The notes under the pieces are model-generated. The model was not told the origin of the DNA, searched no databases, and worked only from the letters and a program-made list of their open reading frames with translations. DNA of 60,672 nt, from NCBI GenBank assembly GCA_944326615.1, contig CALVEO010000007.1:1-60672 (forward strand). The letters run 5' to 3'. Position numbers and translations under genes: made by a program. Source of the stretch: Candidatus Gastranaerophilales bacterium (GTDB taxonomy: Bacteria > Cyanobacteriota > Vampirovibrionia > Gastranaerophilales > Gastranaerophilaceae). Positions 5,293 to 11,773 of the stretch are shown here, piece after piece; positions within the stretch are counted from its first letter, which is position 1; each line of letters begins with the position of its first letter.

Positions 5293-6948
5293 ATGGGAAT
5301 TGACGGATTATCATTTTTTGGCAAAGATTATGCCGCAGAATTTAAAGAAAAATGGGGTTCACAGATTGAAGCAGATAAACAAAAACTTTCATCTGCAGGA
5401 ATTACTGTTCCTATAGGACAGCCGCAGGAAAATAAAAAGAATGATAATAAAGGGCTTGAAGTAGAAAAGGAACAGACTCAAAAAGAAAATTTCAAAAGAC
5501 AATTTACTTCAAATGATGATATTAAGAAAGCTGAAGAAGCAGCAGAAAAAGAATTTTTGAAAAACGGTGTATCAAAAGGTGATAATACTGAAACTGTTAA
5601 AGAAGGAAAACAAGCTGAAAAATTAGCTAAAAATTATGTTGAAAATGAGTACAACAAAGAACAGGTTGCAGGTACACAGGTTTTCATGGATAAAAAAGCT
5701 TATAAAGAAGCTGAAAAGGCGCGCAAAGAGCAGCGTAAAAATCTAATTGATGAATACAGGGAACAGGGTATGAGTAGAAAAGACGCTAAAAGAGCTGCTG
5801 AGTCCCAATTAGTTGAAAATGAATATGTCCGCGGCAAAAAGACACGCGCTTATATAGAAGAACATAAAGATGATTTTTATGATGAAAATGGTAATTTTTC
5901 AAGTGATAAATTTAAAGCAAAAGCTGTAGAATTTGCAAATACAAATACTACGGAAGGAGAAGTTAAAAATTATCATTTAAGCTTAAAAGAAAGACGAAAA
6001 GCCGCAGAAAAAGAAGGCGTAAGCGCAAATGTTATTAAAAATATTGCGAAAAAATCAAATCTGGACTATGAAAGAGATAATACAAACCTGTATAAAGGAC
6101 TTGTGATTACAGGAGCTACCGGAGCCGGTATTGCATTAGGGCCTTTATTTGGATCTTCTGCAGCGGCGGCCGCTGCAGCCGCAGCTGCTTCTTCATCATC
6201 GTCAGCAGCAAATGCAATTAGCGGCTCTGCATCAGCCTCAGATTCAGCAGCATCTGCAGCATCATCGGCCGCTTCACAGGCAAAAACAAACGGTTATGCC
6301 ACAGGTGGAGGAATAGGTTTGGCAGTTGGACTCGGCCTTTCTCAATTTGTTAAAGATAAAGGCAACAAAGAAGCTAAAATATATGAGCCGGGTGTACAGC
6401 AGTCACAGCCGCAACCGCAGCCGGATGTAGAACCTGATACACCGCCTGTACCGCCTCAGCAAGATATTGCACAGCCGCCTGTACAGCCTGTGGAACAACC
6501 TGAGCCATGTCCTGTAGAAACCTGGTACACTCCATTTTGTGATCATACGGTTAAAAAAGGTGATGACTGGACAAAAGTATCTCTTGCAAAAGTTAAATCA
6601 ATTAACGGTAAAAAACCTGACGGCAAGATTTTAAGAGCATACGTTCATGCAGAAAAGCTTAAACATGGAGTAACAGACTTTTCATTAAACACAATGCCGA
6701 AAGTCGGTGAAACAATGAGAGTTTATTCAGACTTCTCCGACCTTCTTGCAGATGAAGAACTGGTTAAAAAACATCCTGAATTGCTACTTTTGAAAGATGC
6801 ACAAATTGAATTAGATTGTGATGGACAGACAAACGGTAAAAGTTCAGGCAGACCAAAAGTTAAATATACACCATTCACAGGTGCATTTACTGACGCCGTA
6901 AGATACAAACAGGACTGCCACGATCCGGAACCGGTAATGATAAAATAA
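5293..6948 (+). CDS. Large coiled-coil, Ala/Ser-rich protein with LysM-like C-terminal domain
   Basis: 551 residues, no signal peptide. Order: charged Lys/Glu-rich coiled coil (about 20-260); a hydrophobic glycine-rich segment (272-285) running into a poly-Ala/poly-Ser tract (about 286-330); a second glycine-rich hydrophobic segment (about 336-350); a Pro/Gln-rich linker (about 363-400); then a C-terminal domain starting HTVKKGDDWTKVSLAKV, which looks like a LysM repeat (HTVKKGDTL-type opening). LysM domains bind peptidoglycan or chitin-like glycans. The two hydrophobic segments could form a membrane hairpin. The poly-Ala run uses GC-rich codons unlike its surroundings. A purine-rich AAAGGGAAAAAA precedes the ATG. 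Function unknown; I infer an envelope- or host-facing role. Confidence 0.7.
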   Translation: MGIDGLSFFGKDYAAEFKEKWGSQIEADKQKLSSAGITVPIGQPQENKKNDNKGLEVEKEQTQKENFKRQFTSNDDIKKAEEAAEKEFLKNGVSKGDNTETVKEGKQAEKLAKNYVENEYNKEQVAGTQVFMDKKAYKEAEKARKEQRKNLIDEYREQGMSRKDAKRAAESQLVENEYVRGKKTRAYIEEHKDDFYDENGNFSSDKFKAKAVEFANTNTTEGEVKNYHLSLKERRKAAEKEGVSANVIKNIAKKSNLDYERDNTNLYKGLVITGATGAGIALGPLFGSSAAAAAAAAAASSSSSAANAISGSASASDSAASAASSAASQAKTNGYATGGGIGLAVGLGLSQFVKDKGNKEAKIYEPGVQQSQPQPQPDVEPDTPPVPPQQDIAQPPVQPVEQPEPCPVETWYTPFCDHTVKKGDDWTKVSLAKVKSINGKKPDGKILRAYVHAEKLKHGVTDFSLNTMPKVGETMRVYSDFSDLLADEELVKKHPELLLLKDAQIELDCDGQTNGKSSGRPKVKYTPFTGAFTDAVRYKQDCHDPEPVMIK

Positions 6949-6971: not shown

Positions 6972-6998
6972 AAGTTCCTCATAAAAGAGGAACTTTTC
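6972..6998. terminator. Bidirectional hairpin terminator overlapping the ispE stop
   Basis: AAGTTCCTC (6972-6980) pairs with GAGGAACTT (6987-6995), with a short T-run on the plus strand. It sits between two convergent genes. The last codons and stop of the KsgA-IspE gene (minus, ending at 6979) lie inside the hairpin, so its final residues KVPLL are encoded by terminator sequence. Confidence 0.75.
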
Positions 6999-8703
6999 CG
7001 GCACCTTTTTCAATTGCCTGTAAATCATTTTTTATCCAGTAATCTTCTATAGGTTTAAATGTTTCGTTAACCATAAAATAAGTCGACCCTGACCCTGACA
7101 TTATTGAATCAGGGTATAAATTTTTAATTTTTTGGAGTTCTTCATAATCATCAATTAAAGCCCATTCAAGATCGTTTTTAAAATCATATCTTGAACCATA
7201 TTCTGATTTAAAATTTGATGATTTTTTTTGTGAAAATTTTGTGTAAGCTTCTTTTGCGCTAATTCCTAGACATTTAGGCTTTATAAGCGAAATTTTCATA
7301 TTTTCAAACGGCATTTTTTCCAGAATTTCCCCCCTGCCTTTTGTCATCTGTCTGCCGCCTTCAAGACAAAAATTCAGATCAGAGCCTAATTGGGCGCAAA
7401 GAGTATGAAGCTCTGTTTTGGAAAGAGGGATATTAAATAATTCATTTAACCCGAAAAGTGTTCCAGCAGCATCGGTGCTTCCGCCTGCCAGACCTGCGGC
7501 TACCGGAATATTTTTGTCTATATAAATATCTATCTTATGAGGCGGAAGATTTGTCTTCTCAATAAAAAGTATCGCTGCTTTATAGACAAGATTTTTTTCA
7601 TTATACGGAATTTCTGCATTGTTACCGGAAAGAATTATTTCAAAATTTTCAGCGGGTTCTGTTTTTATTGTCAAATAATCATACAGACTGATAGTCTGCA
7701 TAACGCTTTCTATATTATGAAATCCGTCATCTCGTCTGCCTGTAACTTTTAAATTTAAGTTAATCTTTGCCGGACACTGAATTTTTATTTCACCCGCTCT
7801 ATAGGGAGAAATTGTGTCACTACCCTCCCTTGAGGGGAGGGTGGAAATCTCTGATTTCCGGGTGGGTGAAATATCACGCAATTCTTCAGAGAGTTTGCCA
7901 AACATTTCAATTGAAAGTTTTTCCCCGCGTACATTTTCATCAAGCCCTAATTTAACAAGCGCATTTTGAATTTTTTCTTTTGGAAAACCTGCTGATAAAA
8001 GACAATTCTTAATATTTTTTCTTCTCTGTGAAAAGCCTGCCTTAACAGTTTTTCTAAAATGTGTGTAATCTGTTAAATCAAGAAGCGGTTTTTCTCTCAC
8101 CTTTAATTTCACAAGTGCAGAATTAACTTTCGGGGCAGGATAAAAAGAGCGTCTGCCGACAAGTTTCATAATTTTTACATCTGCCCAGAACTTTGACAAA
8201 ATTGTTAAAAGTCCGTATTGTTTGCCTGATGAATTTTCATCAGCCGCCATTCTTCTTGCAACTTCTTCCTGAACCATAAGTAGAATATCTGTTATTTTAT
8301 TTCTGTTTTTGTTATCTAAATCATCAACTTCCCCTAAAAGATGAGCGATAATCGGACTTGTTATATAGTAAGGAATATTTGCAACAACCTTAACTTTTCC
8401 ATCGCAAAGTTCTGATAAATCCTGCTTCAAAATATCATTGTGTATAATTGTAAGATTTGGCGCATCAAGTTTTTTAAGCTCTTTTATTGCTTCTTCATCA
8501 AGTTCAATTGCGATAACTTTTTTTGCATGCTTTACAAGCTGTTCTGTTACAAAACCAACGCCCGGCCCTATTTCAATTACCGTATCATCCGGTTTAATGT
8601 CTGCAAAATCAATGATATCTGAAATTGTCTGTCCGTCAATCAAAAAATTCTGGCCGAGTCGTTTTTTTGTCCTAAAATATTTTGCCCGTTCGTAGTAGTT
8701 CAT
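6979..8703 (-). CDS. ksgA-ispE: Fusion: 16S rRNA dimethyladenosine transferase (KsgA) + CDP-ME kinase (IspE)
   Basis: 574 residues in one frame. Residues 1-278 are KsgA: LGQNFL, SAM-binding EIGPGVG (44-50), and catalytic NIPYY (109-113); it dimethylates two adjacent adenines near the 3' end of 16S rRNA. Residues 306-574 are IspE: PAKINLNLKV, the GHMP ATP-binding GLAGGSTDAAG (404-414) and the C-terminal SGSGSTYF; it phosphorylates 4-diphosphocytidyl-methylerythritol in the MEP pathway. The linker (279-305) is encoded largely by a palindromic repeat (7821-7868) that also occurs inside coaBC. Both halves look complete. I chose the ATG at 8703 (MNYYERAK) because a TATTAT box lies just upstream; the longer frame has no support. 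ispD lies elsewhere in the window (41373). Confidence 0.9.
   Translation of the reverse strand: MNYYERAKYFRTKKRLGQNFLIDGQTISDIIDFADIKPDDTVIEIGPGVGFVTEQLVKHAKKVIAIELDEEAIKELKKLDAPNLTIIHNDILKQDLSELCDGKVKVVANIPYYITSPIIAHLLGEVDDLDNKNRNKITDILLMVQEEVARRMAADENSSGKQYGLLTILSKFWADVKIMKLVGRRSFYPAPKVNSALVKLKVREKPLLDLTDYTHFRKTVKAGFSQRRKNIKNCLLSAGFPKEKIQNALVKLGLDENVRGEKLSIEMFGKLSEELRDISPTRKSEISTLPSREGSDTISPYRAGEIKIQCPAKINLNLKVTGRRDDGFHNIESVMQTISLYDYLTIKTEPAENFEIILSGNNAEIPYNEKNLVYKAAILFIEKTNLPPHKIDIYIDKNIPVAAGLAGGSTDAAGTLFGLNELFNIPLSKTELHTLCAQLGSDLNFCLEGGRQMTKGRGEILEKMPFENMKISLIKPKCLGISAKEAYTKFSQKKSSNFKSEYGSRYDFKNDLEWALIDDYEELQKIKNLYPDSIMSGSGSTYFMVNETFKPIEDYWIKNDLQAIEKGAGKVPLL
7821..7868. repeat. 48-bp palindromic repeat, in-frame linker of KsgA-IspE
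   Basis: ACCCTCCCTTGAGGGGAGGG followed by a shorter second palindrome (GGAAATCTCTGATTTCC) and GGGTGGGTG. Nearly identical, inverted in the window, to 23388-23435 inside coaBC; they differ by a two-base AT insertion and a few substitutions. It is read through as SEISTLPSREGS on the minus strand. Confidence 0.85.
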
Positions 8704-8710
8704 CTTACCT

Positions 8711-8716
8711 ATAATA
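8711..8716 (-). promoter_or_regulatory. -10 box close to the ksgA-ispE start
   Basis: On the minus strand TATTAT at 8716-8711 predicts +1 at 8704, one base before the ATG at 8703. A second overlapping TATTAT (8719-8714) would give a four-base leader. No ribosome site is present. Confidence 0.5.
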
Positions 8717-8793
8717 ATACCACACACAGGTAAATGTTTAAAAAAAAGTTTTTTGCTAATTTTGTGGATGATATAATTGGATAGGGGGTAAAT

Positions 8794-10119
8794 GTGAGTA
8801 ACATTCAAACACAGGAAAAATTAGATAAAAAAGAAATTTTAAATTTATTCAAATCCGGCTGTAAAGCCGGTGAACAAAAAAGAATAGGAATTGAATACGA
8901 AAGGCTTCCGATTTTTTCAGTAACCTCCAGAGCAGCAGACTATTCGTCAGAATTCGGAGTATGTAATTTTTTGAGAAATTTTGCCAAGGAAGAAAATTGG
9001 GACTATATAACTGATGATTATAATATAATAGGGCTTAAACAGGTGCATGACACTGTGACTCTGGAACCGGGATGCCAGATAGAATTGAGTTTAAAGCCTG
9101 AACAGACAATTGATGAAATTCAAAGCAGAATTGATGAGCTGGATAAACAAATGAAACCTGTTCTTGATAAATCAGGCATATTGCTTTTAAACTACGGTGT
9201 TTCGCCTCTATCCACACATAAATCAATTAGTCTTATTCCCAAAAAAAGATATCATTTAATGGCAAAATATTTATGGGGAATTTTATCTGACGTAATGATG
9301 AGAGAAACTGCAGGAATTCAATGCTGTATAGACTTTGAAAGCGAAGAAGATGCCATGAATAAATTCCGTATAGCAAACAAACTTGTTCCATTTATGACTG
9401 CAATGTTTGCAAATTCCCCGATAAGAGGCGGGGTTGAGACCGGTTATAAGAGTTTTCGCGCCCTGAGCTGGCTAAATACTGATAATGACAGATGCGGATT
9501 TGTAGGGCAGATTGATGAAAGGTTTTCTTTTGAAGAATATATAGATTACGTTCTTCAATCGCCAATGATTTTTATAAACCGCGAATCAGGTGCAATTCCT
9601 GTTAACGGGAAAATTAATTTTGCAGAATTTATTGAAAACGGATTTGAAGATTTTAACGCTAATCTGGAGGATTTTAAACTCCATGCAAATCTTTATTTCC
9701 CGGAGGTACGTCTGAGAAATTTTATTGAGATAAGAAACCATGACTGTACAGGTAAAGGTATGCAATATTCAATTCTTGCAATATACAAAGGAATTTTATA
9801 CAGCCATAGTGCAATGGAAGAAATTGAAGAACTTTTTAAATCATTTGAGTACAGAGATTTTTCTGAACTGCGTTATAATGTCCCCAAAAATGCTTTGAAT
9901 GCAAAAATAGGAACATTTTTTGTAAAAGATATAGCAAAAGAAATTTTGTATATAGCAGAAAAATCTCTTATAGAAATGGATACGGGCGAAGAAAAATATC
10001 TTGATGCAATAAAAGAATATACTCTTAACGGCATAACTCCGGCGGATGTAATTATCCGCAACTGGAACGGAGTTTGGAACAAAGATATAAGAAAGTTAAT
10101 AAAATTTGTAAGTGAATAA
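8794..10119 (+). CDS. gshA: Glutamate-cysteine ligase, cyanobacterial/plant-type (GCS2-like)
   Basis: 441 residues. GIEYERLPI at the N-terminus, QIELSLKP around residue 90, TAGIQCCIDFESEEDA around 170, and VRLRNFIEIRNHD around 305 are the ATP/substrate-binding blocks of the GCS2-type ligases found in plants, cyanobacteria and proteobacteria. The enzyme joins glutamate and cysteine, the first step of glutathione synthesis; relatives make gamma-glutamylcysteine for ergothioneine. No gshB lies nearby, so the end product could be gamma-glutamylcysteine. Start is GTG with a clear GGGGG ribosome site eight bases upstream and a TATAAT at about 8771, so this gene has a normal leader, unlike the divergent ksgA-ispE. 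Confidence 0.8.
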   Translation: MSNIQTQEKLDKKEILNLFKSGCKAGEQKRIGIEYERLPIFSVTSRAADYSSEFGVCNFLRNFAKEENWDYITDDYNIIGLKQVHDTVTLEPGCQIELSLKPEQTIDEIQSRIDELDKQMKPVLDKSGILLLNYGVSPLSTHKSISLIPKKRYHLMAKYLWGILSDVMMRETAGIQCCIDFESEEDAMNKFRIANKLVPFMTAMFANSPIRGGVETGYKSFRALSWLNTDNDRCGFVGQIDERFSFEEYIDYVLQSPMIFINRESGAIPVNGKINFAEFIENGFEDFNANLEDFKLHANLYFPEVRLRNFIEIRNHDCTGKGMQYSILAIYKGILYSHSAMEEIEELFKSFEYRDFSELRYNVPKNALNAKIGTFFVKDIAKEILYIAEKSLIEMDTGEEKYLDAIKEYTLNGITPADVIIRNWNGVWNKDIRKLIKFVSE

Positions 10120-10132
10120 AACTTATTAAAAA

Positions 10133-10172
10133 GACACAGAACAGCATTATTATCTCCATTCTGTGTCTTTTT
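10133..10172. terminator. Hairpin terminator after gshA
   Basis: GACACAGAA (10133-10141) pairs with TTCTGTGTC (10159-10167), flanked by A-run and T-run, so it can act in both directions. Confidence 0.85.
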
Positions 10173-10191
10173 CGCGGTTACTGTTATAAGT

Positions 10192-10417
10192 GTGCGTGGA
10201 CGCACTTAAATCTTTTATGCATAATTATAAAAAAGATTTTTACCTGTTCAGCAACCGTCCGTATCCCGCCGCTGAGTCGCAGGAATTATGCAGGTTATCA
10301 CTATCACCTGCCTCGAAACTGAAGCACAGATTGTGCACTTTTTCCGCCCTTTGCGCAAATCTGGCGGCTGTGCTTCCCTGCACGCGTCATATCCGCATAA
10401 TTCGGCTTTGAGATACG
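10192..10417. ncRNA. Candidate structured non-coding RNA of unknown class
   Basis: This segment is visibly GC-richer than its surroundings and holds no credible ORF, yet shows consistent nested complementarity. Outer pair CGTATC (10260-10265) with GATACG (10412-10417); inside it GAATTATGC (10283-10291) with GCATAATTC (10395-10403); inside that a small hairpin AGGT/ACCT (10292-10309) and GAAGCACAG (10321-10329) with CTGTGCTTC (10368-10376), which encloses CCGCC/GGCGG (10344-10367) around a self-complementary TTTGCGCAAA. Two more hairpins precede it (10192-10205 and 10208-10239). I found none of the conserved cores of RNase P, SRP, tmRNA or common riboswitches on either strand. Strand is unresolved; a TTATAAG just upstream favours plus, while the flanking terminator works both ways. 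Confidence 0.5.
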
Positions 10418-10563
10418 AATTCCGTCTTACATATTTAGAATACTTTATTTTTTGAGATATTTCATTATGCTTTCTGATAATTTATTGCTCTTTTTTATAT
10501 AGACTTTTGTGTAATAGAACAGGTATTTGTTTGGTTAATAATTTATCTGCGGAGGAAAATTTA

Positions 10564-11595
10564 ATGGCAATAAAGACTTTAGTTTTTGATTACAGGGATG
10601 AAGAAAAGGAATTTTTCGGCACTCATGAGCTTGAAAATTTTGAGATAACCTTTTACAGCAACAGTTTGAATGGTGAAACAGTTAAGGAAATTCCGCAGGA
10701 GGTTTTGGATAATACTTATGTAATTAGCGTATTTGTAAATTCAGATGTAAATGAAAATGTTATAAATTCATTCAAAAATTTACGGATAATTTCTACCCGC
10801 TCAACAGGTGTTGAGCATATAGACAAAAAAACAGCAGATGAAAAAAATATTGCCGTTATAAATGTTGAAAGATACGGCGCAAAATCTGTTGCACAATATA
10901 CATTCGGCCTTATTCTTGCACTTGTAAGAAAAATAATCCCTGCCTCAAACTATTTTTTATCCGGCCAGCAGGAAAATTTTAGCAAAAATTTTACAGGCAG
11001 AGATTTGTCAACACTTACGTTAGGCGTTGTTGGTACAGGGAATATCGGAATTGCCGTATGCAAGCTTGCTAGAGCTTTTGGAATGAAAATTCTTGCGTAT
11101 GATTTAATCGAAAAGCAGGAAGCGGTTAATAATTTTGATATTACATACACAGGATTAAATACACTGCTTAAAGAAGCTGACATTATAACCCTGCATCTGC
11201 CTTATACAAAAGAAAGTTATAGAATGTTTTCATCAGAACAATTTAAATTAATGAAAAATTCTGCTTATCTAATAAATACATCACGCAAAGAAATTGTTAA
11301 TACAAAAGATTTATACGAAGCTGTATCCAAAGGATTGATTGCGGGAACTGCTCTTGATGTTGTATTTTGTAAAGATAAAAATTTTGACTGTGCAAATCTT
11401 TCCCCGCAGGCAGATGAAAGTTTGCACTGTTTTGAAGAGGAACAAATTTTAAAAGAACTTGCGAAACTGCCTGATGTTATTATAACTCCGCATATTGCCT
11501 ATGATACACAGGACGCTGTGGATTATATACTTGAAGTTACTTTTATAGCAATCAGTGATTGCATAAAAGGCGGGAATTCATACAGAATTTATTGA
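10564..11595 (+). CDS. D-isomer-specific 2-hydroxyacid dehydrogenase (D-lactate dehydrogenase-like)
   Basis: 343 residues. The NAD-binding GTGNIGIAVCKLARAF (about 155-170), the catalytic Arg in NTSRKEIV, and the active-site His in ITPHIAYDT near the C-terminus define the family; overall spacing is like LdhA. It would reduce pyruvate or a similar 2-oxoacid with NADH, fitting a fermentative cell. Substrate is inferred. I chose the ATG at 10564 because of the strong GCGGAGGA ribosome site upstream; an in-frame start 19 codons earlier lacks support. The gene is followed by a repeat-rich spacer. Confidence 0.85.
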   Translation: MAIKTLVFDYRDEEKEFFGTHELENFEITFYSNSLNGETVKEIPQEVLDNTYVISVFVNSDVNENVINSFKNLRIISTRSTGVEHIDKKTADEKNIAVINVERYGAKSVAQYTFGLILALVRKIIPASNYFLSGQQENFSKNFTGRDLSTLTLGVVGTGNIGIAVCKLARAFGMKILAYDLIEKQEAVNNFDITYTGLNTLLKEADIITLHLPYTKESYRMFSSEQFKLMKNSAYLINTSRKEIVNTKDLYEAVSKGLIAGTALDVVFCKDKNFDCANLSPQADESLHCFEEEQILKELAKLPDVIITPHIAYDTQDAVDYILEVTFIAISDCIKGGNSYRIY

Positions 11596-11607: not shown

Positions 11608-11710
11608 TAGAAGATAGGAAGGTAGGCGCTATTTGGCAGACGGAGGATCGGAGGTCAGGAGGGCAAGCGGATTTAGAGGGTAAGAAGGTGGGAAGATAGG
11701 AGGGTAAGCC
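11608..11710. repeat. AGG-rich low-complexity tract
   Basis: About 100 bases made of degenerate short units such as GGAAGGTAGG, GGAGGATCGGAGG, GGTAAGAAGGTGGGAAG and GATAGGAGGGTAAG. Reverse-complement wording (CTTCCTCCTTACCACTTC) resembles sequence at 49168-49196 inside the M14 peptidase gene. No coding is apparent. Confidence 0.7.
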
Positions 11711-11773
11711 ATTTACAGTAAAAGGCTTATTTTCTAATTGTCGAAGTCTACCTTTTTGTAGTGATATAACAAG

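Follow-up and report, generated by a model that had tools for sequence, protein, structure and literature searches.

The window, i.e., the whole 60,672-nucleotide stretch that was analysed, belongs to contig CALVEO010000007.1 of a Candidatus Gastranaerophilales bacterium (assembly GCA_944326615.1, GTDB family Gastranaerophilaceae). Between a convergent glutamate–cysteine ligase gene and a divergent 2-hydroxyacid dehydrogenase gene, it harbors a unit which, read on the minus strand, consists of a promoter-like motif, two covarying folded domains and a shared terminator (Table 1). The terminator, constituting the 3' end of the RNA unit, is flanked on both sides by U/A tracts, hence it could also serve the convergent ligase gene. 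The 5' end of the RNA would lie near 10425–10430. Taken together, the data establish a conserved, structured RNA gene at this site, probably a stand-alone one.

Table 1. Features of the RNA locus and of the genes next to it (window coordinates)
Feature	Position	Strand	Basis or remark
GCS2 glutamate–cysteine ligase family gene, convergent neighbour	8794–10119	plus	Pfam PF04107
Whole non-coding RNA gene, ~300 nt	10127–10430	minus	Fold z; aligned homologues from TTCGTATC to the terminator; covariance-model matches
Intrinsic terminator, inverted repeat, 17-bp stem then U run	10128–10172	minus	Sequence and fold
Domain 2, closed by P7 CGGUUGCUG/CAGUAACCG	10175–10257	minus	3 of 8 P7 pairs with two-sided changes
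P7, closing helix of domain 2, 9 bp	10249–10257 with 10175–10183	minus	
Domain 2, inner hairpins	10208–10239 and 10192–10205	minus	Helix mapping
Domain 1, closed by P1 and P2	10258–10419	minus	Fold and covariation
P1	10410–10419 with 10258–10267	minus	Fold, covariation
P2, GCCG/CGGC	10403–10406 with 10268–10271	minus	Fold, covariation
P3 hairpin, GAUAU-type loop, kept across genera	10382–10398	minus	Two-sided changes in all four P3 pairs
P4, 5' strand GCAGG, pairing with CCUGC at 10279–10283	10377–10381	minus	Alignment, covariation
P4, 3' strand CCUGC	10279–10283	minus	Alignment, covariation
P5 hairpin, length varying among species	10321–10376	minus	Covariation, helix mapping
P6 hairpin GCAGGU/ACCUGC, conserved loop GAUAGUGAUA	10290–10311	minus	Window's genus only
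Promoter-like motif AATGAAA-N17-TATTCTAAA, common to the hsp20 promoter region of relatives	10434–10466	minus	Sole match in the window genome
D-isomer specific 2-hydroxyacid dehydrogenase gene, divergent neighbour	10507–11595	plus	Pfam PF02826; synteny

A first-pass annotation, made from the letters alone, had described a strongly structured segment at 10175–10430, with nested complementary segments in a 158-base core (10260–10417), two more hairpins before it, a GC content above that of the surroundings, and a bidirectional terminator and a dehydrogenase gene as flanks. This description was borne out: the core corresponds to domain 1, the two hairpins make up the interior of domain 2 within helix P7, the GC content is 46.5% in 10200–10399 vs. 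roughly 27–36% in most neighbouring 200-base windows, and the flanks are as described, with the ligase gene lying beyond the terminator. The unit is longer than the segment then delimited and reaches the terminator on one side and the promoter-like motif on the other. The strand, the full length and the linkage to hsp20 are additions of the present analysis.

Several features of the neighbourhood can be recorded in passing. A 609-aa minus-strand ORF (6979–8808) likely represents a KsgA–IspE fusion: its ribosomal RNA adenine dimethylase (KsgA-type) domain is succeeded by one of the GHMP kinase (IspE-like) kind. A 551-aa plus-strand ORF (5293–6948) with Ala/Ser-rich and Pro/Gln-rich tracts gave no Pfam match. 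Just past the dehydrogenase gene, a purine-rich plus-strand stretch (11610–11760) contains repeated GGAGG/GGTAAG-like units at a GC skew near 0.47.

The minus strand is the one that matters, as follows from its far better fold: segment 10175–10430 folds at −82.9 kcal/mol (z −4.13, none of 200 shuffles as good) on the minus strand vs. −69.4 kcal/mol (z −2.18, 4 of 200 shuffles as good) on the plus strand. For the full unit (10127–10430), the minus-strand fold reaches −104.1 kcal/mol with a z of −5.49, not equalled by any of 100 shuffles. The covariance-model matches, at 10249–10419, are on the minus strand as well.

Compensatory changes confirm most of the helices. RNAalifold, run on a MAFFT alignment of 20 congeners made from sequence alone, predicts P1, P2, P4, P6, P7 and the terminator, with two-sided changes at 14 of the 46 consensus pairs. 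When the named helices are scored on the same alignment, 99.1% of the cells are paired and eight pairs change on both sides; none of 500 shuffles was as high for pairing, two-sided changes or the covariation score, further pair types were no more numerous than in the shuffles, and controls with slid partners gave 31–51% pairing. In a broader alignment of 49 sequences, which leans to the covariance model to which it was fitted, two-sided changes were found at 28 of 36 pairs and 96.3% of the cells pair; this was reached in 0 of 500 shuffles, and sliding the partners by 1–3 columns lowered pairing to 32–50%. Thus, the covariance check on homologues suggested in the first-pass annotation revealed strong covariation in both alignments. 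Of the refuting conditions set in that annotation, neither a lack of covariation nor a match to a known Rfam class applied.

Outside its core, the RNA diverges fast, and beyond the window's genus it can be as short as ~130–160 nt, terminator included. In these compact relatives, the strand just after P3 pairs with a hairpin loop of domain 2. An exact 5-base kissing complement is present downstream in all 22 compact sequences, representing eight genera, vs. 5.2 expected from neighbouring 5-mers, an indicative comparison, the contexts having been picked by eye. The kissing pair occurs as four covarying types (CGUAC/GUACG, CGUGG/CCACG, CGUGC/GCACG and CAUGC/GCAUG), and a similar loop–loop complement in group g21 shows the compensatory variants GUCGGC/GCCGAU, AUCGGU/ACCGAU and ACUGGC/GCCAGU. 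The position of this kissing strand is that of the 5' strand of P4: in the window's genus, the equivalent strand forms this nested helix instead.

The family has a narrow distribution. By blastn, the segment was found in 25 of 58 related genomes (the window's own included), nearly all of them congeners; the one match in another family, 27 bases long and outside the core, was treated as chance. Searches with covariance models (R1, built from 18 sequences, and the broader R2, built from 49) detected the RNA in 28 of 33 congeneric genomes, with a single copy in each; the remaining five gave no model match, so the RNA is not universal in the genus. Across the order, 62 of 383 genomes carry it, once per genome, in eight genera which all belong to the window's family, and 48 of 289 genomes of the class were positive, none outside this family. 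The large scans of order and class ran stricter filters through which weak matches can escape, and what the subsequent searches recover is set by the first covariance alignment; the sampled genomes are MAG assemblies.

Among named genomes, matches to the core pattern came from gut MAGs labelled Candidatus Gastranaerophilales and from two entries named “uncultured bacterium”, along with matches labelled Streptomyces and Sphingomonas, presumably due to chance. Sequence FR900472.1, labelled “Fusobacterium sp. CAG:439”, carries the RNA, and its label appears to be wrong. The core pattern had no exact match in IMG/VR, where a viral origin was looked for. The literature search returned no paper on non-coding RNA in Gastranaerophilales. 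The main text of a survey of structured RNAs in the human microbiome mentions neither this group nor hsp20 (PMC8040213); an anonymous listing of the RNA in its supplementary tables, beyond the main text, is possible.

In most sampled relatives, a dehydrogenase homologue is situated upstream of hsp20 and/or the RNA. The gene order of the linked loci is the divergent dehydrogenase gene, hsp20, the RNA and the terminator, and in most loci the distance from the Hsp20 stop codon to the RNA is 0–87 nt, with ~50 nt as the upper end except in two cases, where it comes to ~90 nt. In further genera with few or no model matches, a core-like RNA with the kissing pair again lies behind the orthologous hsp20, and nothing similar was seen behind the nearest hsp20 examined in other families of the order. 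Hence, a location in the 3' untranslated region, ending at the terminator of the mRNA, is found in the linked relatives, and the mRNA part is missing in the window species, where the RNA would probably be a stand-alone gene.

The window species is not alone in this respect: it and 16 further loci of the sample lack an hsp20 ORF between the dehydrogenase gene and the RNA, which remains intact. These account for 17 of the 43 loci in the dehydrogenase tree, on which 11 changes of the hsp20 label are needed, at least 10 of them forced by well-supported branches; the changes may be losses, or some of them regains by recombination. The pairing is preserved in 453 of 469 cells (96.6%) at loci without hsp20 and in 779 of 811 (96.1%) at loci with it, and where two solo RNAs are closely related, most of their differences fall outside the helices. 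Global alignment of solo and linked loci gave one clean empty-site pair (L004/L005), several other pairs being ambiguous. In the window genome, hsp20 matches occur only elsewhere, the strong one being a clearly different sequence type (a paralogue).

At the linked loci, the motif AATGAAA-N16-TTATTCT precedes the ribosome-binding site of hsp20, and several solo loci, the window included, have this motif immediately in front of the RNA. Nine congeneric genomes contain 12 matches to the pattern, eight of them at the RNA locus, vs. none for the reversed pattern in all nine; the window genome has a single match, immediately upstream of the RNA. Only the upstream half of the motif is recognisable in one solo clade (L007, L009, L014, L019, L020). 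A wider regulon governed by this motif was rejected, most of the matches being at the RNA locus itself. The spacer between the dehydrogenase gene and hsp20/RNA contains a second conserved motif, TTCTATT(A/G)CACAAAAGTA, e.g., at L012 and L016; the dehydrogenase gene may have its divergent promoter there.

In view of the above, the locus is best explained by a structured non-coding RNA family derived from the hsp20 3' untranslated region, stand-alone in the window species and most likely acting in trans, a reading to which we assign a probability of approximately 0.6. The family would be confined to one Gastranaerophilales family. Ancestrally, one particular hsp20 gene would have carried the RNA in its 3' untranslated region, so that every transcription of this gene would have co-produced it. 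In the window species, where the hsp20 ORF is absent, the RNA would be expressed directly from an hsp20-type promoter, up to its own terminator. Action in trans is considered most likely, since many lineages that lack the protein gene have preserved both the RNA and its pairing; the hsp20 response would then have a non-coding arm in this RNA, which would be a protein-bound scaffold or a regulator. We infer that the RNA would be transcribed and induced by stress; the data support, without proving, its co-expression with hsp20 and its action in trans. A more far-reaching version can be put forward only tentatively: the RNA may be a lineage-specific, conserved product of the hsp20 locus which is built on a kissing core, is induced together with the small heat-shock protein, persists where the protein gene has repeatedly disappeared, takes over its promoter and forms the RNA component of a protein-quality-control response.

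The alternative that fares best, overlapping the preferred reading as one possible realisation of it, is an ordinary trans-acting antisense sRNA whose conserved loops pair with mRNAs. Its arrangement resembles that of CpxQ and other sRNAs derived from 3' untranslated regions (PMC4817254, PMC9438474), and loops such as that of P6 are conserved within the genus. However, the RNA is ~5 times the length of CpxQ and far more strongly folded, the compact relatives have no P6 loop, and the bases conserved across genera sit in the core of the fold, as in protein- or ligand-binding RNAs, so that we regard a plain antisense sRNA as rather improbable.

A cis-acting element of the hsp20 mRNA, affecting its stability, blocking exonucleases or mediating temperature-dependent decay, would accord with the location of the RNA immediately past the hsp20 stop codon in most loci, with its own terminator. 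The solo copies would then be relics, but the undegraded pairing in the 17 sampled loci without hsp20, the promoter-like motif kept in several of them and the at least 10 state changes with the RNA retained are not what relics would show, which makes this explanation unlikely.

That the locus encodes a small protein is very improbable: there is a 73-aa plus-strand ORF along with short minus-strand ORFs, and part of domain 1 is open in one frame in some congeners, but no start or reading frame is conserved, length differences are not multiples of three, the longest frames differ between species and the segment is altogether missing in the compact relatives.

A divergent copy of 6S, RNase P, SRP RNA or tmRNA or a known riboswitch, to which the RNA is comparable in size and overall fold, can be practically dismissed, because the four housekeeping RNAs are found elsewhere in the genome, neither the window nor 35 homologous loci gave an Rfam match, and no same-strand gene lies downstream for a leader to control. 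In the window, no Rfam family reached the threshold, even a relaxed one, and there was no credible sub-threshold match; weak matches, such as those to STnc40, GibS and whalefall-1, were outside the core or far below the threshold. The sole matches to RNase P RNA (RF00010) and SRP RNA (RF00169) are at G000:C11 and G000:C8, respectively; tmRNA (RF00023) has an above-cut-off match at G000:C34 and none at the RNA locus. 6S RNA (RF00013) likewise gave no match at the locus, and the 6S candidate of the genome (G000:C10:39597–39780) scores 43.5 bits, just below the Rfam cut-off of 46.4. A riboswitch was rejected, since a terminator closes the unit and the gene beyond it is convergent. The first-pass annotation, which saw none of these known classes in the sequence, had left a choice between a regulatory or housekeeping RNA of unknown class and a folded DNA element. 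The former still stands; the latter is disfavoured because of the conserved strand asymmetry, i.e., the promoter-like motif, the orientation with hsp20 and the terminator.

Among the known systems, the closest parallel in arrangement, by analogy, is CpxQ, an sRNA made from the 3' untranslated region of the mRNA of the stress protein gene cpxP (PMC4817254, PMC9438474). Both RNAs lie close to the stop codon of a stress-protein mRNA, in its 3'-terminal part, and end at an intrinsic terminator, so one transcript would yield a protein arm and an RNA arm. Unlike CpxQ (~60 nt), the Gastranaerophilales RNA measures ~130–340 nt, has a covarying multi-domain fold with a kissing interaction and is kept while the protein gene is repeatedly missing; no sequence relation between the two is known. 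In Deinococcus radiodurans, the heat-inducible non-coding RNA DnrH acts on Hsp20 (PMC6798082). Compared by description, both are bacterial non-coding RNAs tied to Hsp20, DnrH being tied to heat tolerance as well, but DnrH comes from a different phylum, has no known homology to the new RNA and was reported to target hsp20 rather than to constitute the 3' untranslated region of an hsp20 gene. With 6S RNA, the new RNA shares a similar size and a closing stem round a folded interior, whereas the branching differs. OLE, GOLLD, ROOL and raiA are large structured bacterial non-coding RNAs with a highly conserved complex fold and a function not evident from sequence. The Gastranaerophilales RNA also has a conserved complex fold; unlike them, it is restricted to one family and tied to hsp20, and has no Rfam match to any of them.

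Overall, a well-supported new RNA family has been added to a largely uncultivated group of gut bacteria, and hsp20 provides it with a clear genetic handle, missing for most orphan RNAs. The repeated loss of hsp20 with the RNA of its 3' untranslated region kept offers natural experiments on the conversion of an mRNA tail into a stand-alone RNA gene. If the induction by heat or other stress is true, the RNA would represent an RNA arm of the small-heat-shock-protein response.
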